The notes below the pieces were generated by a model that had not been told where the DNA came from, did not search any database, and worked only from the letters and a program-made list of their open reading frames with translations. A stretch of DNA of 64,000 bases from Sipunculus nudus (taxonomy: Eukaryota > Annelida > Sipuncula > Golfingiida > Sipunculidae). The stretch lies in assembly GCA_026874595.1 (NCBI GenBank), contig CM049306.1, positions 82,302,142-82,366,141 of the forward strand, given 5' to 3'. Below are positions 7,311 through 61,817 of the stretch, one piece after another; the stretch's first letter is position 1; the number at the start of each line of letters is the position of its first letter. The position numbers and the translations under genes were made by a program.

Positions 7311-7610
7311 GTCAGATATACATACATATTAATGTCGATCATTTGTGGAGACCTTAACAGTAGAGTTAGGGACTCAATTGATATGATTGAAGGTATTGAT
7401 GATATTCCTAAGAGACAGGTTATTGATTTTAACAAAAATCAGCACGAAGCATTGATTGAATTTTTACACGAATCAAAATTTTGTATAGTTAATGGAAAGA
7501 TTAATAACTTGCAAAATCATCTTACGTGCATATCATCTAAGGCAAATCTGTAGTAGATTACATTTTGGTTCCACAAGATAAATTGAAGGTCTGTTTATAT
7601 TTTTATTGTA
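7311..7610 (+). pseudogene. LINE endonuclease domain, C-terminal half
   Basis: The frame from 7311 reads ILMSIICGDLNSRV; GDLN corresponds to the GDFN motif of APE-type endonucleases. After a frameshift near 7550 the frame continues VVDYILVPQDKL, the conserved block before the catalytic His region. In intact LINEs this domain nicks target DNA. The N-terminal half with the other catalytic residues is absent, so it cannot be active. Confidence 0.8.
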
Positions 7611-8300
7611 TCGCCATGTTCTGATTTCATAGAAAATAATAACTTAATGTATTTAGTTGGAAGAAAATCACGGATACCTGATCTCGTAGAAGTCCATATT
7701 GATATTGGAGTTAATATAGATCATACACACTTACAAAAGAAACGAGAGGCAAAAAGAAAGTTTAATTTCAGGAATATACCCGCTAACTTTATGAAGTCTG
7801 AACACGTAATGCATTATATATTAGAAGCCATAAATATTATTGAAAATGCTAAAGATTCACAGGCATCTGTTGATAATGCATATTGTGCTGTTACAAGTCC
7901 AGTTAGTAATGAAATGAATGATCTTCTGGTCCGTAATGATTGTATAAAAAACAAACGCAGAGTAAAACCACTTTGGAGTGATGAATTAGATGCATTGTTT
8001 AAAGATAAAAGAAAGGCTGAAAAGGAATATAGAAAATGTGTTAGTGCTGGAAAAGAAGGGAAAGAACTTCTAGAAGCTTTTAAGAAAAAATCTGCTCTGT
8101 ATAAAATTGTATATGATGAGGTAAGTGTGTTGAGTAAATGGAAATCTGATTTATATGCTGGTATAAATGAGTCTCACATTAAAAATAAAAATTTTGCAGA
8201 ACAAATAAAACATTTTATGTCATGTAGAGAAAATGATATGATTGACCCATTATATCAGGGTAAGCAGGAATTAATACAATTATTACTTATGATGAATTAG
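7611..8300 (+). pseudogene. LINE ORF2 endonuclease-RT linker
   Basis: Open from 7611, reading SPCSDFIENNN and then VGRKSRIPDLVEVHIDIG. The SRIPDxxxVEVHIDI part corresponds to the last endonuclease block (usually SDH), with the His lost. The remaining 200 or so residues are Lys/Glu-rich (RRVKPLWSDELDALFKDKRK) and typical of the region between endonuclease and RT. The frame ends by a frameshift near 8270, after which the RT continues in another frame. Confidence 0.75.
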
Positions 8301-9110
8301 AAAGTGTAGTTAATAAGCTGAAAAGGGGGAAAGCTGCAGGAATTGATGAGATTCCTTATGATGTTCTGAAAAATGCTATAGTCACTAAGGCATTACACAG
8401 TTTCTTTAATACGGTATTTGATTATGGAATAGTTCCTTCTGTAAGGGCTGATTCAATGGTATTTCCGATCTTGAAGTCCAGTGTCGATGACCCTAGGGTG
8501 CCAATGAACTAAAGGAGTATTAGTTTGTTATGTTGTATTTTGAACAGGCGTCTTATGAAGAACTTAGATAATCATAACATCTTAGTTGAGGAGTAAATTG
8601 TTTCAGAGAAAATCGATCGTGCTTAGAGCACATTTTTTCCTTATATTGTATTATCAGAAATAGACTAAACATTGGTCTTAATACGTTTACAGCTTATATA
8701 GATTTGAAAACCGCTTTTGACTCGGTGAAAAAAGATTTTCTGTACTATAAATTATTTCAGTGGGGAAATGATGGCAAATTTTATTTTGCTTTTAAAGCGT
8801 TATACAAAGACAAACGAGCTTATGTAAAGATTAACGATCTGTACACAGATTGGTTTGATACCTCAGATGGTGTGAGGCAGGGTGATACCCTTTTACAAAC
8901 GTTATTTTCGATCTTTATTAATGATTTGGCAGAAGGTATCAATAGAATGAATAGAGGAATAGATGTAAATTGTAGACATGTTAGTATCTTAATGTACGCT
9001 GATGATATTGTTTTATAAGCACGCTCTGCGTCTACTTTACAAGAAATTTTATCTTACATTCATGAATGGTGTCAAAAGTGGCAAATTGAAATAAGTGAGA
9101 AAAAGTCAAA
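8276..9110 (+). pseudogene. LINE reverse transcriptase, multiply interrupted
   Basis: 8276-8509 reads LKRGKAAGIDEIPYDVLKN and ends in DPRVPMN followed by a stop at 8510-8512, where RT block 2 normally has NYRxIS; RSISLLCC follows the stop. A piece is missing before LNRRL. From about 8695 the frame carries IDLKTAFDSV (first catalytic Asp), GVRQGDTL and LMYADDIVL (catalytic YADD at 8995-9006), then a stop at 9016 and HEWCQKWQIE beyond it. Both Asp blocks remain readable, but stops and deletions make it non-functional. Confidence 0.88.
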
Positions 9111-9851
9111 AGTTGTACACGGCGAAAAAGTTGTTTAGGCGTTCGAGACAGAAAAGGTCAAATGTTATCTTTAAAGCAGGGGAGAAAATTATTTCCTATA
9201 CATCATTTTATAAATATCTTATTGTGTATTTTGATGGAAATCTCAATTTAAATCATCACGAGAGAGAGAGAGATGGCTGCAGCTGCCATGAGAGCATAAG
9301 GAGCTGTGATAGGTAAATATCGAACAAATAATAATATGTCGTTTAAAGTGTACAGTAATCTTTTTCATGCTTGTGTTCTACCAATCATAGAATATGGTTC
9401 AGAAATATATGGCGCTGATAAACGTCCTAGATTAGAGAATGTTCAGACGACAGCCGGCAGAATATTTTTGGAGTAAACAGATTTGCTCCACATTTAGCCA
9501 TCCTAGGTGATGTAGGTTGGGTAATCTGTAAATACCGGTTAATAATGAATGTGGTGAGATTATGGAATAGGATTTTCAAAATGGATGACAATAGATTATG
9601 TTAGCAAATATTTTTATGGGATTATGCTTTATTAGAAAATAATTCCACTGTATGTGACTTTTTGAAAATTGTGAATGTAAACCAAGGTTTGACAATATTA
9701 TAGAATGCTCAATGACTAAATATTTACAATAAATTAGAACATGTGATGAATGATGAATGGAGAGAAAAACTGTTATCAAAACCAAAACTTAGGAATTATA
9801 GGCTGTACAAAAATTCAATCAGTACTGAATTATATGTAAAATTGAACCTTT

Positions 9852-10154
9852 TTGGCTCAGTTCAGAATGGGTGTATTACCTTTGGCAATTGAAACTGGCA
9901 GATTTCGTCGTATTAATATTGAACAAAGAGTCTGTTTTAAATGTAATGCGTGTATTGAAGATGAGGTCCACTTCCTTTTTCACTGTCCTTTGTATGAGCA
10001 GGAAAGTCATATATTATTTTCTGGTACAAACTGGCCATCATCTACTTTTACAGAAAATGATAAAATATCCTGGTTGTGTGAAAATAAATCTAGAAAGCTA
10101 GCAAAATATTTATGCAGATGTTACGAAATTAGGAGCAAGCAATTGTATGTCTAG
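9852..10154 (+). pseudogene. LINE ORF2 C-terminal Cys/His domain
   Basis: About 100 residues containing FRMGVLPLAIETGRFRR, then C-x2-C-x8-H-x4-C within CFKCNACIEDEVHFLFHC. This Cys/His knuckle is common at the C-terminus of LINE ORF2 proteins and is thought to help bind template RNA. The frame has no ATG at its start and ends at 10154, about 140 bp before the element's 3' tail. Between 9117 and 9850 recognisable ORF2 words (YKYL, IIEYGSEIYGADKR, LFLWDY-like) are scattered over frames. Confidence 0.75.
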
Positions 10155-27440: not shown

Positions 27441-27650
27441 ACGGCTTTGACAAGAATCGATATTTTTATCGATGACTCTAACAAGAATCGATATTTTACT
27501 CGATGGCTCTGCCAAGAATCGATATTTTTAACGATGGTTCTGACAAGAATCGATATTTTATCGGTGATTTTGACAACAACTGATATTTTATCGACGGCTC
27601 TGACAAAAAAACCGGTATATTTACCAATGGCGTTAACAAGAATCAATGTA
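27441..27650. repeat. 30-31 bp minisatellite containing ATCGATATTTT
   Basis: CAAGAATCGATATTTT-type units start at 27451, 27482, 27513, 27544, 27574 (CAACAACTGATATTTTATCG), 27604 and 27637. The spacing is 31, 31, 31, 30, 30 and 33. Several units contain ATCGAT...ATCGAT pairs, so each can form a small hairpin. The last two are decayed. Ile/Thr-rich frames on both strands are by-products. Confidence 0.88.
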
Positions 27651-30508: not shown

Positions 30509-30602
30509 ACAGGAGGACCCGGAGAAAACTACCGGCCTTGGACGAGCCACTACAACCCACTCTCATGGCCGCACCGGGAATCGAACCCGGGTCGCCAGCG
30601 GA
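30509..30602 (-). mobile_element. tRNA-derived SINE, copy 1
   Basis: On the minus strand: CGACCCGGGTTCGATTCCCGG (B-box GGTTCGATTCC at 30587-30577), then GCGGCCATGAGAGTGGGTTG, TAGTGGC and CGGTAGTTTTCTCCGGGTCC. The same blocks occur at 44291-44395. Upstream TGGAAAACTGGATGTAAAACG is a weak A-box candidate. No conserved tail was defined, so the length is a minimum. Confidence 0.75.
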
Positions 30603-31065
30603 GAAGGCAGGGCGTTTTACATCCAGTTTTCCAGGCCCCTTATGTTAAATATACATGGAATATAACGTGTTCCCCTAACAATATCATTTTACCTGCAAAC
30701 ATTTCCTTCTAAAACCCATACGGTTACTCCTGCACAAGTGGAAACAACTTTGCATCGGTGCGATCAGGGGCACGAAACATAACCATAGTGCGGGCGCAAC
30801 ACTCAAAAAGCAAGACTTCGCAAGCGGTGTTCCCTTGTGTTTCTTCTTTCATGTTTCATCTCCTTGTTTGTTAGTTGCAGTTGCATGTGCAAGATTCGAC
30901 CCTTTGATCACGATATAGAAAACCCGGCATGAAGGACTGTGTTATTTCATATACAGAACCATAAAACGGATAAAACTGGAGAATTGAACATAGTAAGTCC
31001 GTGTGATTGGTGGTTTTGCTGTTGTTACGAAGACAAATTGTTGAGGGGAAAAATCCTGAATCGAT

Positions 31066-31125
31066 CCCGGTTTCGAACCCAGGCCGGTGGCGTACAAGTC
31101 CGGCGTACCAACCGCTTCGCTTGCA
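31066..31125 (-). mobile_element. tRNA-like SINE head
   Basis: The minus strand reads AAGCGAAGCGGTTGGTACGC (A-box-like, 31122-31108), then CCGGACTTGTACGCCACCGG (anticodon-arm-like, close to tRNA-Thr TGT), then CTGGGTTCGAAACCGGG (B-box 31080-31070). The spacing of the boxes is right for a tRNA-derived pol III promoter. It lies just left of the composite satellite island. Confidence 0.6.
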
Positions 31126-31163
31126 AAGCAAGCTTCCCTAGCGAGACAGTTCGGTCCGTTTTT

Positions 31164-31192
31164 AGCTCAGCTGACTGAAAGTCATCTGAGCT
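31164..31192. repeat. 12-bp stem hairpin at the island's left end
   Basis: AGCTCAGCTGAC, loop TGAAA, GTCATCTGAGCT; 11 of 12 bases pair. Confidence 0.85.
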
Positions 31193-31235
31193 ATAGCGAT
31201 CACTCTTTGTCCGTCGTCCGTCTGTCCGTCTGTCC

Positions 31236-32714
31236 GTCCGTTAACCAGGCACAAATCGTAACCGCTGAACCTAGAACCTTGTAACTTGGGATTCTGAGAG
31301 GTCCATGAAAAATCTCCTTGGAAACCAGAAATTAGGTCTCTGTTACCCATATCCTTCGAGCTATGGGGCCCCAAAGTACCCCCCAGAAAAGTAAAAAATT
31401 TCATACAAAAACTTCAATATCTCATTAACTACTTGACTGATGGTCATGATTTTTGGCATACATATTGATCATGAGATGTTCCATCACTTCCTGCAAACTT
31501 GTGGCGCCACCTGTATTTTTCGTTTTTTTTACAAATTTTTTTCTCTATTTTTGAGACCTTTAAAAATGTGAACGTCTGTTAACAAGGCACAAATCGTAAA
31601 GCCTAGACCTAGAATCTTAATTCATGATTTTTGGCATACATATTGATCAAGAGGTGTTTCATCAGTACCTGCAGACTTGTGGTGCCACCTGTATTTTTTC
31701 AAATTTTCACAATTTTTTTTCTCTATTTTCGAGACCTTTCAGGATGTAGGTATCTGTCAACAGGGTACAAATCGTAAGGACTGGACCTAGAATCTTCATT
31801 GTTGACACAAAGGGAGACCCATGATAAGTCTCCATGGACACCTGAAATTAGGTCTCTGTTACCCATATCCTTTGAGCTATGGCACTCCAAAGTACAGCTC
31901 AGAATAATGGAAAATTTGATACAAAAGCTGAAGTATCTGAACAACTAATGCAGAGATCACCATAATTGTTTTCATGGATATTGATCATGGAGTGTTTCAT
32001 CAGTTTCTGCAGACTGGTGGCACCACCTGTATTTGTTCGGGTTTTTTTACGAATTTTTTCTCTATTTTTGAGACCTTTAAAGTTATGAACATCTGTTAAC
32101 GGGGCACAAATCATTAAAACTGGACCTAGAATCTTCATTCTTGACACACAGGGAGACCCATGAAAAGTCTCTATGGAAACCTGAAATTAGGTCTCTGTTA
32201 CCCATATTCTTTAAGCTGTATGGCTCCAAATTACCCCCCAGAATAATGGAAAATTTGATACAAAAACTGCAGTATCTCAATAACTACAACACTGATGGTC
32301 ATGATTTTCGGCATACATATTGATAATGACCTGTTCCATCAGTTTCTGCAGACTGGGTGCGCCACCTCTATTTTTTTCAAATATTTACGATTTTTTTTTC
32401 TCTTTTTTTGATACCTTTAAAGATGTGGTTATCTGTCAGCAGGGTACAAATCGCAACAACTGGACCTAGAATCTTCATTCTTGTCATGCAAGAAGGCCCA
32501 TGAAAAGTGCCTGTGGAAACTTAAAATTAGGTCTCTGTTACCCATATCCTTCAAGCTATAGGACTCCGAAGTATCCCTCAGAATAATGGACAATTTGATA
32601 CAAAAGCTGAAGTATCTGAACAACTAATGGGGAGATCACCATGATTCTTTGCATTGATATTGATGTTTGTAAGTGTTTTTATTAGTTTCTGCAGACTGGT
32701 GGAGCCACCTGTAT
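31236..32714. repeat. Tandem array A, unit about 340 bp, four to five copies
   Basis: The unit-start phrase TNACNAGGCACAAATCGTAA occurs at 31238, 31573, 31750, 32091 and 32430, spaced 335, 177, 341 and 339; the 177 step is a truncated unit. Each full unit then has ACCTAGAATCTTCATT, TAGGTCTCTGTTACCCATAT, CAATATCTCANTAACTA-type and TTGGCATACATATTGAT blocks. It ends with a GGTGGCGCCACCTGTATTTTT box. The minus strand of each unit stays open for about 60 codons (GNRDLISGFH), which follows from tandem copying and is not taken as coding. Confidence 0.9.
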
Positions 32715-33930
32715 TTTTGTACCCGCCAAAACGAAGTTTTGTGGATACTATGTTTTTGACCGGGTTCCTCCGCCGTTGCCGCGTTCGTTTCCAGAGAGCT
32801 CCTCTGGGACTTGATTTTATCAGCTTTCCAAGCTCATATCTCGGGAACCGTTTGACTGATCAGGAAATAAAATTTATACTAATGTAGCCCTTGGATAGCT
32901 CTATAACATACACAAAAAATGGTGGCGCCACCTGTAACCATGTTTGAACAGTGTCCATCTGTTCATCTGCCTTTGGTTAAAATCACTCATATCTCTGCAG
33001 TGAATTGACTAATTCACCTGAAATTCGGCATGCGTATACATCCTGGATAGCTTTCTTGATTTTATGACAGGTGGCGCCACCTACATTCTCATTCACGCTG
33101 ATGACATCCAAGCTCATATTTCGGGAACCGTTTGACCGATCGGGCCAAAATTTTGCATGTATATAGATCTAACATAGCTCTTTATCATACGCTAAACTGG
33201 TGGCGCCACCTGCAACCATTTTTGCACAGCGTCTGTCTGTTTGTCTGCCGTGCAATAATGTCACTCATATCTCGGCAGTGGTTTGACATATCTGCCTAAA
33301 ATTTTGCAGTTTTATACATCCTGGATAGCTTTCTTGATTTTATGACAGGTGGCGCCACCTTTATTCTAGTTTATGCTGCAGACATCCAAGCTCATATCTC
33401 GGGAACCGTTTGAACGATTGGGCCAAAATTGTGCATGTGTATAGATCTCACATAGGTCTTTATCATACACAAAACTGGAGGGGCCACCTGCAACCATTTT
33501 TGCACATTTTGCACAGCGTCTGTCTGTTGGTCTGCCGTGGCCTAAAATCACTCATTTCTGTGTAGTGGTTTGACATAACTGCCTAAAATTTTGCAGGTTT
33601 ATACATCCTGGATAGCTTTCTTGATTTTATGACAGGTGGCGCCACCTACATTCTAGTTAACGCTGCACACATCCAAGCTAATATCTCAGGAACCATTTGA
33701 CTGATTGGGCCAAAATTGTGCTTGTGTTTAGATCTCACATAGGTCTTTATCATACACAAAACTGCAACCATTTTTGCACAGCGTCTGTCTGTTTGTCTGC
33801 CGTGGGCTAAAATCACAATTTTGCATATGTATACAACTTGGACAGCTTTCTGGATTTGTGGTAGGTTGCACAACCTACATACACATTTAGGCTGCAGACA
33901 TCCATGCTAATATGCAACATACCTCCCTCT
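32715..33930. repeat. Tandem array B, unit about 280 bp, about four copies
   Basis: The phrase AAGCTCATATCTCGGGAACC occurs at about 32829, 33110, 33388 and 33673 (decayed), spaced about 281, 278 and 285. Each unit has two palindrome boxes about 130-150 bp apart: 32921, 33069, 33199, 33347, 33477 (decayed), 33634 and a rewritten one at 33861-33878. Other shared blocks are CATCCTGGATAGCTTTCTTG and CAGCGTCTGTCTGTTTGTCTG. Confidence 0.9.
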
Positions 33931-34178
33931 GTTTCCCCTTGCCACTCAATCCATGCCTCACTTCACTCTGATTTTGGCAGATACACGTAGTCACTTGTCG
34001 GCTACCCGTATTCTAGTTTTTAAAGTTTACACATTCTTTCTCTATTTTTCAGATATATAAATACAGACTAAATCTTGGCCTGTTGGTTAATCTGTTTGAT
34101 GCTTCAGTTGAATGGGTATCTACCATTCTGATGATAAAATTTCCTTTTGTGAATCTCTTCCCAGTCAGCTGAGCGTCA

Positions 34179-34192
34179 TGACCCATGGGTCA
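34179..34192. repeat. 14-bp perfect palindrome TGACCCATGGGTCA
   Basis: It lies 4 bp outside the island's right inverted end. It is followed by CTTGTTATGTCACCCCGTAAC, whose reverse complement recurs in the tRNA-like repeat at 26.5 kb. Confidence 0.85.
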
Positions 34193-34611
34193 CTTGTTAT
34201 GTCACCCCGTAACACTGTAAAAAACCTTTTTATTCAGCCATAATGATTTAATGAGATAATACAAAAAGTGCACGTTTATGTACCTTGGGCTTTAATGTAA
34301 TTTTTTCTAGTTGGTGCTAATTGGTTTGAGGTACAATTTTTTAACTGAATGTATTAATACAACGTAGTCACAGACATTTGAATTCTTAACATTTAGCCTT
34401 TATTTTGTTATTTTATGATTAACTCCGTCGAATTCTGACGGCACTGTCTTTTAACTTTCGATGAAGCTGATCATTTAAGAAATTTAGCCGTCTGGACTTC
34501 ATATTTTTTTTTAATGCACGGGGACCGGAATAATCGATAATCGATAAGTCACAGGGGTCCAACCCCTATAATTACAAAAGCTTAAATTGGTCCAACCTAT
34601 TTCTGACACAG
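34193..34611. other. Unassigned AT-rich stretch
   Basis: No gene seen. It ends in CCTATTTCTGACACAG, a fair splice-acceptor look-alike. Confidence 0.4.
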
Positions 34612-34898
34612 AAACCCGGGGGTGGAGAGGTAAGTTTTATTATAATAAGGACAACGACCTGTTTCAAAGATGGATTTATGAGGAAGAAAGCTGTGGCGCT
34701 GGCGGTATGAGTGGATCACACGATAATCTGAAGCCTTCTGTATTTCATACATTTATGCATGCGGCTCGCTTGTCTCGGCCCAAGTCGTGTGATTCCGATC
34801 CGCTCAGCTCCTCTCCGTCAACAATGTCTTGGGAACGACTCTTAAAACAAAAACGCCCAGTAAGGTTCCAAATAGGAGACCCCTTTGGAATCGTATAA
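34612..34898 (+). CDS. Possible C-terminal coding exon, unknown protein
   Basis: After the acceptor-like CCTATTTCTGACACAG the frame reads TRGWRGKFYYNKDNDLFQRW, then EEESCGAGGMSGSHDNLKPS, FHTFMHAARLSRPKSCDSDP, LSSSPSTMSWERLLKQKRPV and ends RFQIGDPFGIV at 34898. It is about 95 residues of balanced composition with a Ser-rich linker and basic patches, more protein-like than nearly every other frame here. There is no ATG until 34707, so it fits better as a last exon than a small gene. There is no canonical AATAAA close downstream, and GAGAGGTAAGT inside the frame at about 34626 is itself a good donor site, which argues for caution. Family not recognised. Confidence 0.3.
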
Positions 34899-36354: not shown

Positions 36355-36551
36355 TGTTACAGGTGCCCTTTTTATTGTGTGACACGGATGTAATTCGTGT
36401 TGTAGCGCCCGTGTCTGGCCGCGAGCTCACGTGTGAACCCTGACACGGCGTTCTCTGTTCTAGTATGTTCTTTGAGCGTGTGTACTGTGTATTATGTTGG
36501 AATTGTTTAGACTGTTCGAGAAGTGGAAAATTCTCGGCTTGGGGCGAGAAG

Positions 36552-36561
36552 TTATAAATAG
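36552..36561 (+). promoter_or_regulatory. TATA-like box TTATAAATAG
   Basis: Conserved in the second copy at 61520-61529 (minus). With AATAAA about 390 bp downstream it gives the element an LTR-like promoter-to-polyadenylation order. Confidence 0.45.
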
Positions 36562-36945
36562 GGGGCTGTGTTTTAAAGCGGAGAGAGAGGTAAGAGAATA
36601 TTCCAGCGGACACAGACGTGTGTATGTCAGTGTGTGGGACCTGTCCGATTATCCAGTAATTTCAGGGATTCTACTATTACTAACACTTTACAATTTAGTA
36701 GTGCCTGTCTCAATTTTACTTTCTGGATTGTTACAAGAGCTTTACATTGGACTGTTATTCTCCGAGAGAATTCGTGTGAACCATTCGTCAGGTTTATACT
36801 TTTAAAAACCTACCGCTGTGGTGGTACCGAGGTACTGTGCACTTTGTTTATCTTACTGTGGGATTGTATTGATTTGTTGTTATACTGCTGTTATATTGTG
36901 TAATTGTATTGATTTAATGTATTGTAATGTTAGGGTTGTTTTAAG

Positions 36946-36951
36946 AATAAA
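36946..36951 (+). terminator. AATAAA polyadenylation signal
   Basis: Lies within AAGAATAAAGTATAG; kept in the other copy at 61167-61162 (minus). Confidence 0.45.
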
Positions 36952-37108
36952 GTATAGTTATTTGTTAACTAAAAACCACTGACTTCTTTATTCATCCCCC
37001 TAGACATTTCACGCTGCCTAGTGTTACAGAATCTGATTTTATTTTATCTCCTTGACAAAATTTATGTTCATCACGCATACGTGATCTGTTGATATTAGGT
37101 CCATAACG

Positions 37109-44290: not shown

Positions 44291-44395
44291 GTGGAGGAAG
44301 CTAGAGAACCCGGACAGAACCACCGACCTTGAACGGGCCACTACAACCCACTCTCATGGCAGCACCTGGGATCGAACCCGGGTCGTCAGCCGAGC
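44291..44395 (-). mobile_element. tRNA-derived SINE, copy 2
   Basis: The minus strand carries CGACCCGGGTTCGATCCCAGG (B-box 44378-44368), then CTGCCATGAGAGTGGGTTGT, AGTGGCCCG, AAGGTCGGTGGTTCTGTCC and GGGTTCTCTAGC. It matches the copy at 30509-30602 block by block. Confidence 0.75.
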
Positions 44396-46349: not shown

Positions 46350-46640
46350 GTTAACACCTTGTGAACGTATCTTCGATGTACAAGGTGCCTGCTTATGATA
46401 TGCGTGGGTAAGGATACAACAGTTGCATTTAGAAAACAGCTCTTTAATTAATTAACTCCTTGTAAAAGAAATATCAAGGTGCCTGTTGATGATTTGGTAA
46501 GGATACAAAAGTTACATTAGGAAAATAGAGCTTTAATTTATTAACTCCTTGTAAAAGTTACATAAAGGTGCCTGTTGATGATATGCGTTGGTAAGGATAT
46601 AAAAGCTGCATTACGAAAATTGAGCTTTAATCAACTAACT
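46350..46640. repeat. 89-94 bp tandem repeat, about three copies
   Basis: AAGGTGCCTGYTKATGAT units start at 46382, 46476 and 46565, each followed by GGTAAGGATAYAANAGYTGCATT and a GAGCTTTAAT block with TTAACTCCTTGTAAAAG. A single related unit (AAGATGCCTGCTGATGATAT) lies at 47613-47665, right after a C run. Confidence 0.85.
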
Positions 46641-48858
46641 TATTTTGAAAGTAATATTGAATGATTTACCATAATTAGGAATAAATAAGGTACATAATTA
46701 GTCAGCTACACAGATGTATAGAAGGGAAAGACATGGCTTCCTACATGGTGAGAGCTTGTTATAGTGTGATGGATCGTATACTTCGGGCTAGGATCAGTAC
46801 AACATTAATAATCTGACGTCTCAACCAGTACCAAAAAAAGTTATATAGCCATATACGGTAAATATATGTTGCCTCCTACATTAAGTTTTAGTTTTTAGTA
46901 TTTTTTGCAACCAAAAGATGTAACGTTGATGTTCAGCTGGAATATGTAACCTTTTATTCATCAGTAGTGTTCAGCAAATGCCATTTCCAATTTTACCATT
47001 CCCGTCCAATTTTGTTGCGTTTGACCTTGAAAATGACAATGAGAAAATTACTTGAACTCTTCTCTATGTTTTCATCATCAACAAGTTGCATATTAAATAA
47101 AGGGCACTCGTAAAAATGGTATACTGGAGATAATTGTTCTACGGATACTAACACAAATATCCTGGTCCAATGGATTAATTACGATAAGCTGAAGCACATT
47201 TAACTAGCTGTGTATTTGCTTAGGAGTACATTTCCGCTGTGTGTATCTAAACTGAAATCAAAAGATACCCCAAGTGATTTTACAGATTTATCATAAATGA
47301 TTTCTATGAGTTAGTTTTCGAACTGTAAAATTACAATAAAACCATCCATTGCAAATGTTTAAATTAATCTTGATTAGCTTGTTAATTTTACAAGTATAGC
47401 TCAAACCATTTCCAAGTGGTAGATAATTCTGACATAAAGTATCTCTTTTAACACTACGATTTCGCCATTTTACGTATAAAGCCCAAAACACATCGAACAA
47501 GTGTCGTGCATGAATCGTGAAATCAGGTGAAAGTCGCTTCTGTTTATTTATCTTATTATCTTGAACAATCTGCAGATCTGACAGGAACCTGACAGGCACC
47601 CCCCCCCCCCCCCAAGATGCCTGCTGATGATATGCGTTGGTTAGAATACAAAAGTTGCATAACGAAAACGGAGGTGGTCCCTCTACCAAAAATTCCCTTA
47701 AAAAGTGTTATCCTGAATAAACCAGGAGTGAATGGGTACAGGCCAAGGACGGCACGCAGATGCTTAACAAATAACCTTCTAGCGTTTGTTATAGCTGCTT
47801 GGACAGATGTCCCCAAGGGAGCCGATTAAAGCTACAAAATGAACAGGCCCGAAAGACTAGAAGGCAAACTGTAAAAGTCGGCTAAGTAATGTTAAACTAT
47901 AAATCCCCACTGTTTCATGTGTTGGCGATAAATGCCACCGAATGATCGTATTTGAACTTAAAACACATAATGGTTCATTAAAGCATTTATATATGATGAC
48001 TAATAAATAATGATAGCAATCGCCTTTTCCTTCATTGTGGCAGCTATCGTTTCAGCCATTTTGGTTGGTTCAGTTCGCCTATTACCTATTATGGACATGA
48101 TTACAACATGGCTTGTGTGAGTGTCATTTGACACAAAGATTACCTTAGATCCGTAAGTAACCTAATATACCTTAGTTTTATTAATAGGGAATCACTATAT
48201 CGGTTCAGATTCAATTTGGTTAGGCTTGACATTAAAAATGCATTGAAAATGACCTTTGAAGTTCATCAGTGTCTACAAAAGTAAAAAATCAACCTTGGAT
48301 GACCCATTTTTCGGTTTGACCTTAGAAATGAGCTTGTAATTCAAAATTTAAGTTGTCATCCACCCACACATTTTTCTTCACTCTATGACTGATTGATTTA
48401 GCATGGATGCCTGCTATTAACAAGCAATGCCCTCTAAAGTTAAAAAATCAACTTTGGCTGGCACACTAATACAGGAAATGACTCATTTTCATCATGAACA
48501 GAGTTTCAACTTGGGTAGTGAGTTCACTTGATTTCTTTTGTGTTAATTTATTATTCGTAGCCTAATGATAAGATTAAGGTTTGTGTACTACGATATGAAT
48601 GGAAAATGATTGAATACCACTGCGATGCATTCCTCGATATGGCCTGTATCATGACTCAAAGTCAGGCGTACTAGCCCTTTATAAGTGCCTATTGAGTCGT
48701 CCTGTCCCGTCTAATCAATATGCCACAAATTAGCATAGAACATCCTATTAAAGAATAATAACAATATAGTGAAACATTACTGATTTGGCGAAGGTCTGCG
48801 CTTTCAAAGCGCTTTCTTGTTGTACACAGATTCACGCTTTAGTAACACGAGTTGCCTT
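46641..48858. other. Unassigned stretch
   Basis: Holds the C run at 47599-47613 with the stray tandem unit after it, and a decayed GGCGAAGGTCTGCGCT fragment at 48785. No gene supported. Confidence 0.4.
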
Positions 48859-61004: not shown

Positions 61005-61817
61005 TGTTACGGAACCTAATATATCACGATCAGATCACGTATGCGTGATGAACACAAATTTTGTAATGGAGCAAAAAAATCAGATTTGTGTAACACTAGG
61101 CAGCGTGAAATGTCTAGGGGAATGAATAAAGAAGTGTTTTTTTGTTAACAAATAACTATAATTTATTCTTAAAACGACGCAAACTTTACAGTACACTAAA
61201 TCAATACAATTACACAGTACAATAACAGTATGACATCAAATCAATATAACCACACAGCCTAATAAACAAAGTGCACAGTACCCGGATACCATCACCGCCA
61301 CAGCGACAAGTACCTAAAATGTATACTCTCGGAGAATAACAGTCCAATGTAAACCTTTTGTAACAATCCAGAAAGTAAACTTGAGGCAGGCAGCATTAAA
61401 TTGTATAGAATTAGTAATAGTAGAATCCCTGAAATTACTAGATAATCGGATAGGTCCCACACGTCTGCGTTCGCTGGAATATTCTTTAACCTCTCTCCGG
61501 GCACTAAAACACAGCCCCCTATTTATAACTTATTGCCCCAAGCCGAGAATTTTCCACTTCTCGCACAGTCTACAGGATCTAACATAAAACACAGTAAACA
61601 CGCGTTACAGGAATCATCTAGAAGAACATCGCTGTGTCTCTACATACCAGGGTCCACACGTGACTCACGACGCGGCTCGGTCAGCGAGAAAGCCCCAAGC
61701 TAGCATGACAACGAGAGTTCAACCAGTACGGATGAAACTGAGAATGTAACAAGCGGCCCGGCGAGGGCGCTACAACACGAATTTTAGTGTCGCACAATAA
61801 AAAGAGAACCTGTAACA
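61005..61817 (-). mobile_element. Dispersed TGTTACAG element, copy 2
   Basis: Minus-strand copy of 36355-37108. The ends are TGTTACAG (61817 side) and CCGTAACA (61005 side), inverted, with ATAT directly repeated outside both (61001-61004 and 61818-61821), which fits a 4-bp target duplication. A TATA-like box lies at 61520-61529 and AATAAA at 61162-61167, both on the minus strand. GTGTTACA at 61096-61089 marks the alternative LTR-type end. A 70-codon frame (61292-61504) parallels the hydrophobic frame of copy 1 but is broken upstream. Confidence 0.75.

Follow-up and report, generated by a model that had tools for sequence, protein, structure and literature searches.

Two different tandem arrays lie side by side in a 3-kb interval of the Sipunculus nudus genome that is bounded by a perfect inverted pair of 13-mers. 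Is this a single mobile element that carries or breeds satellites, or has the locus been assembled in some other way? We addressed this question in a window of 64,000 nucleotides (contig CM049306.1 of assembly GCA_026874595.1, forward-strand positions 82,302,142 to 82,366,141). Coordinates count from the first letter of this window, and the two elements and arrays, with all their parts, are given on its plus strand. The locus very probably consists of two non-autonomous rolling-circle elements of the Helentron type (HINEs), of which one, element B, is nested in the other, element A. The anatomy of the locus and the interruption and resumption of array A are directly visible; the mobility of the elements, the enzyme that would move them and the order of events are proposed by analogy with the published class.

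The 13-bp inverted pair reported in the initial annotation is exact, with 31165-31177 on the plus strand matching 34162-34174 on the minus strand, although its start had been placed one base too early. The two tandem arrays described between the 13-mers, of about 340 and 280 bp, are likewise present, with measured periods of about 339 and 278 bp. As a measure of chance, exact inverted 13-mer pairs with at least five G/C and 20 to 3100 bp apart were counted in 30 shuffles of the window. Shuffled windows contained a mean of 1.5 such pairs, falling to 0.03 when at least eight G/C were demanded, as found in the pair considered here. The real window holds 22 pairs with at least five G/C, 12 between boxes of the arrays (see below) and 10 elsewhere, including the 31165/34162 pair. 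Given these counts, the 13-mer pair alone constitutes weak evidence. What rises above chance is the complete end structure rather than the 13-mer pair itself.

Element A extends approximately from 31159 to 34198; its features stand in the order known from HINEs, and its outer limits are drawn from the published layout. A 5' oligo-T border (TTTTT, 31159-31163) precedes the 5' subTIR, GCTCAGCTGACTG (31165-31177), the exact reverse complement of which is the 3' subTIR, CAGTCAGCTGAGC (34162-34174). A third, minus-strand copy of the 13-mer at 31179-31191 carries two mismatches, or one over the 12 bases of 31180-31191, and turns the 5' end into a hairpin of -10.6 kcal/mol (z -4.33) that none of 200 shuffles equalled in stability. 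The left module also contains a GTCC/GTCT microsatellite (31208-31239). Beyond the 3' subTIR lie a perfect, self-complementary palindrome of 14 bp, TGACCCATGGGTCA (34179-34192), whose fold energy is ordinary for its composition (z -0.95; 34 of 200 shuffles as good), and a tail, CTTGTT (34193-34198), the TT of which is the putative terminus. Thus, the 13-mers, originally taken for the ends of the element, are subterminal, as the structure runs on to the 3' palindrome and the tail. The T-run at 31159-31163 and the TT at 34197-34198 may mark a T-rich insertion site. Every stop-to-stop frame within 31159-34198 is shorter than 100 amino acids; element A would therefore depend on an enzyme from elsewhere. 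In sum, element A displays inverted subTIRs within the HINE range of about 11-15 bp (13 of 13 bases matching), an inverted copy near the 5' subTIR, a microsatellite in the left module, a palindrome after the 3' subTIR, and no coding capacity.

We then expressed this layout as a grammar and scanned for it. A first, stricter rule, which demanded seven exact bases in the inverted copy, found nothing in the window and matched in 2 of 40 shuffles. A loosened rule (an exact pair of 12 bp, an inverted copy tolerating up to two mismatches, and a palindrome with a stem of five within 35 bases; both strands) matched element A as the sole instance in the window, and none of 200 shuffles contained a match. 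This loosened rule is post hoc, because it was set after element A had been seen and the strict rule had missed it.

Between its two modules, element A carries the array of longer period. The left part of array A (31237-32718) comprises a partial unit starting at about 31237, a 178-bp unit (31444-31621) and then 339-bp units, whose period holds over 31623-32718. The 178-bp unit corresponds to the 339-bp unit minus its second 161 bp, which suggests either an internal deletion or growth of the 339-bp unit from a shorter one. Array B, with its degenerate edges, occupies 32827-33913. Its 278-bp units are dimers, each made of one half-unit of 149 bp and one of 129 bp, and the period is clean over 32895-33764. 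Tandem Repeats Finder (TRF) scores of 1331 and 1172 place both arrays far beyond chance.

The left part of array A ends within a unit, at a T-run (32714-32718) that follows the box of that unit. The interrupting sequence, element B (approximately 32719-34016), is HINE-like, with a subTIR pair and an imperfect 5' inverted copy of its own. Its 5' subTIR, TGTACCCGCCAAAA (32718-32731), and its 3' subTIR, TTTTGGCAGATACA (33972-33985), are reverse complements at 12 of 14 positions, and elsewhere in the window nothing matches them at that level. This imperfect inverted copy of the subTIR lies at 32736-32744 and would form a 5' hairpin of -3.8 kcal/mol (z -1.83), a stability equalled by 11 of 200 shuffles. 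For a 3' palindrome, 33968-34020 offered no clear stem (z -0.26; 68 of 200 shuffles as good); this part may be absent or decayed, or the end of B may have been misjudged. Element B presents two of the HINE hallmarks, the subTIR pair and the T-rich insertion site. A and B have different subTIRs and would represent separate families under the rule, stated in the available part of PMC4067079, that one family is defined by subTIR identity over 11 bp or more.

After element B, array A takes up again in register, from its break point. The resumed stretch (34017-34076, with a T-run at 34017) was identified by alignment to A units: its 60 bases gave a mean score of 41.75 against four units, compared with 32.5 for the best of 5292 control segments. 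In a profile search this short, T-rich segment reached only E 0.33, yet it was the best match outside the array. When the flanks were joined across B, they aligned through the junction with all four A units tried (scores 105, 97, 124 and 87). Five Ts stand at both junctions, which can alternatively be read as a 5-bp duplication; the location of both junctions in T-runs agrees with published HINEs. The single inverted-end unit that had been proposed for both arrays is not borne out by this arrangement, in which array B very probably came with a second, nested element and array A resumes behind it.

The two arrays have more in common than their position. A box of the type GGTGGCGCCACC recurs in 11 copies over 31495-33650, five in array A and six in array B, one per unit or half-unit; in array B the copies are spaced 149/129/149/129/158, a dimeric pattern. 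With at most one mismatch, the box occurs eight times in the window, always within 31495-33650. Profiles containing the box found the other array (E 4e-6 for A on B and 1e-6 for B on A), and box-less profiles of A and B gave no significant match to the other array (best E 0.5 to 0.67). When B half-units were compared with A using the box as anchor, two of the six scored above all 1246 control segments and one was equalled by three controls. The other three were no better than controls, 202, 118 and 223 of the 1246 being as good, and segments from the other half of the A unit resembled the box half no more than controls did. The arrays had been described as unrelated. The common box, together with the resemblance to A beyond it in two of six B half-units, argues against this, and judging by these similarities the arrays probably descend from a common ancestor.

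Could a simpler arrangement explain the locus equally well? Inverted pairs with at least five G/C are common, both per shuffle (1.5) and in the window outside the array boxes, so that the pair might enclose ordinary satellites by chance, without any element being involved. However, the ordered set of features appeared in 0 of 200 shuffles, and the array, the microsatellite and the palindrome stand at their published places. We therefore reject chance alone on the strength of the grammar scan, and regard such a coincidence as extraordinarily improbable. A cut-and-paste transposon, whether a TIR element, a MITE or a foldback element, that carries satellites between 13-bp terminal inverted repeats would be expected to have just such a perfect pair. 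Yet a palindrome and a tail lie beyond the right 13-mer, so the repeats are not outermost; on the 5' side the repeat is present twice, as the two arms of a hairpin; and by eye no direct repeat flanks either the 13-mers or the outer limits proposed for element A. The structure beyond the right 13-mer and the doubled 5' repeat led us to set aside a TIR or MITE identity, and a cut-and-paste origin in any form seems highly improbable.

More serious is the possibility that a single HINE carries both arrays as one mobile unit, or that the nested pair now moves through the outer ends of A. Double-array HINEs have indeed been published: according to the available part of PMC7492417, of Cg_HINE_10_13 and Cg_HINE_11_12 one has related and the other unrelated monomers. 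Nevertheless, array B lies between subTIRs that differ from those of A, and behind it array A is taken up again at its break point. A single two-array unit is disfavoured because a direct succession of arrays does not predict that array A should continue after B, and we consider this reading unlikely as a whole. Its variant with two unrelated arrays in one unit is rejected on account of B's own ends, the resumption of A and the common box. There is likewise a small probability that the nested A and B now travel as a composite through the ends of A and gather array families by repeated nesting, helped by the box GGTGGCGCCACC common to the arrays of the two families, possibly a recombination or replication signal.

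For the nesting of one HINE in another, which we favour, the published class suggests a course of events. Element A would have carried its 339-bp array flanked by two modules, the left one made up of subTIR, inverted copy and GTCC/GTCT microsatellite and the right one of subTIR and palindrome. Later, element B, with its own 278-bp array and an unrelated subTIR pair, would have inserted into the T-run of one array-A unit; with its many T-runs, array A would offer many such landing sites. By analogy with the class, an autonomous Helentron at another genomic site would provide the Rep/helicase; this enzyme would nick the 5' end, rolling-circle copying would proceed from there and halt at the 3' palindrome, and the copy would enter T-rich DNA without duplicating its target. 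The arrays would be passengers, changing in size by slippage, unequal exchange or rolling-circle copying. As described in the available parts of PMC7492417 and PMC4067079, HINEs make no target duplication and use T-rich or TT sites; the clear target duplications foreseen in the initial annotation are therefore not to be expected. Its proposal of a mobile element with satellites was right as to the kind, given the inverted subterminal repeats and satellite-like arrays, and has to be corrected as to terminal ends, a single unit and, probably, unrelated arrays.

Pattern scans gave no match in viral contigs (four patterns) or in genome contigs (two patterns), nor did a distant blastn search of 31150-34200 against plasmids and phages. 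Because these collections consist of viral, bacterial, archaeal and plasmid DNA, such misses carry little weight for an animal genome. In Rfam, no family reached its gathering score in the window and none matched up to E 1 in 30600-34800. ARAGORN found no tRNA in the window. Of the 42 frames of 100 amino acids or more listed for the window, 19 were compared with Pfam, and no Helitron protein was among the matches. Literature text searches retrieved only work on bacterial chitinase for the box GGTGGCGCCACC and only work on cytomegalovirus for the 13-mer, both seemingly unrelated.

The window contains further repeats and coding remnants. A short dispersed repeat (30513-30603 and 44304-44394; 87% identity over 91 bp) begins the list; the first of its two copies lies some 550 bp to the left of A. 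Just left of A, on the minus strand at 31060-31140, a tRNA-like B-box, GGTTCGAAACC, was recognized by eye, with nothing reported there by ARAGORN or Rfam; it is perhaps the head of a SINE. A longer dispersed repeat forms an inverted pair (36442-37107 and 61006-61638) with 81% identity over about 680 bp. Tandem arrays occur at 27443-27644 (31-bp units containing ATCGATATTTTTATCGAT) and at 46382-46654 (89-bp units, to which another, incomplete copy at 47614-47668 can be added some 1 kb on), and a 57-bp minisatellite of 12.5 copies with 93% matches lies at 780-1492; a stop-free plus-strand frame (1144-1644) runs through part of the latter. A stop-free frame of 207 amino acids on the minus strand (60-683) weakly matches a FAR1 DNA-binding domain (E 2.2e-5, under the Pfam cut-off) and is perhaps a remnant of a MULE-type transposase. 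A reverse transcriptase fragment (RVT_1, E 7.8e-12) is encoded at 8590-9018 on the plus strand; this region and the neighbouring stop-free frames 7587-8300 and 9846-10154, which have no Pfam match, probably represent a decayed retroelement.

The initial annotation knew of no named element of exactly this build. The build is, however, that of HINEs and of the Cg_HINE elements of Crassostrea gigas, two-array forms included (PMC7492417, available part). That source describes 11 Cg_HINE elements, two of them with double arrays and one of these with unrelated monomers, in a layout of 5' subTIR, complementary inverted repeat, microsatellite, array, 3' subTIR and palindrome. Our locus resembles them in its left module, where Cg_HINEs have a subTIR of 11-12 bp, a complementary inverted repeat and a short microsatellite (GTCY, GTCC or GTCK in several), in its satellite-like array, and in a right module with 3' subTIR and palindrome. 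The likeness lies in the layout; the subTIR of element A measures 13 bp, and the units here are 339 and 278 bp long. Double arrays in Cg_HINEs usually follow each other directly; in some 5% of Cg_HINE_10_13 copies a gap of as much as about 1.2 kb separates them (PMC7492417, same part).

Similar features recur in HINE-Mo, HINE-Cq and DINE-1, for which the available part of PMC4067079 gives subTIRs of 12-15 bp (13 in DINE-1), a 3' palindrome, central repeats, a microsatellite and insertion at TT. DINE-1 has a separate inverted repeat about 3-22 bp from its 5' subTIR, as does element A. In the mite HINEs described there, in contrast, the subTIRs are themselves palindromic, with no separate inverted repeat, and are located about 38-60 bp before the 3' end, as against 24 bp to the proposed end of element A (PMC4067079).

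The kind of element described here is thus already known from oysters and other animals. Oyster pearl elements CvA, CvE and CvG, reportedly described by Gaffney in 2003, also bear comparison. Going by their descriptions in the available parts of PMC5874043 and PMC11136912, they share subterminal inverted repeats, a tandem core and a tetranucleotide microsatellite with our locus. 'Shuffled' Helitron/satellite loci of C. gigas, with such structures lodged in further elements and arrays of different kinds in a single element, are presented in the available part of PMC12628747 in the form of a review description, which follows no individual locus letter by letter. Nine of the 11 oyster satellites analysed in PMC8268682, as far as its available part goes, are associated with mobile elements. 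If oyster double arrays arose in the way proposed here, nesting would be another route to them, in addition to the capture of filler DNA that the available part of PMC7492417 considers; our single locus illustrates this route rather than proves it. The Sipunculus locus offers a readable case in which two satellite families would have come to share one inverted-end unit when an array-carrying rolling-circle element landed in the array of another.
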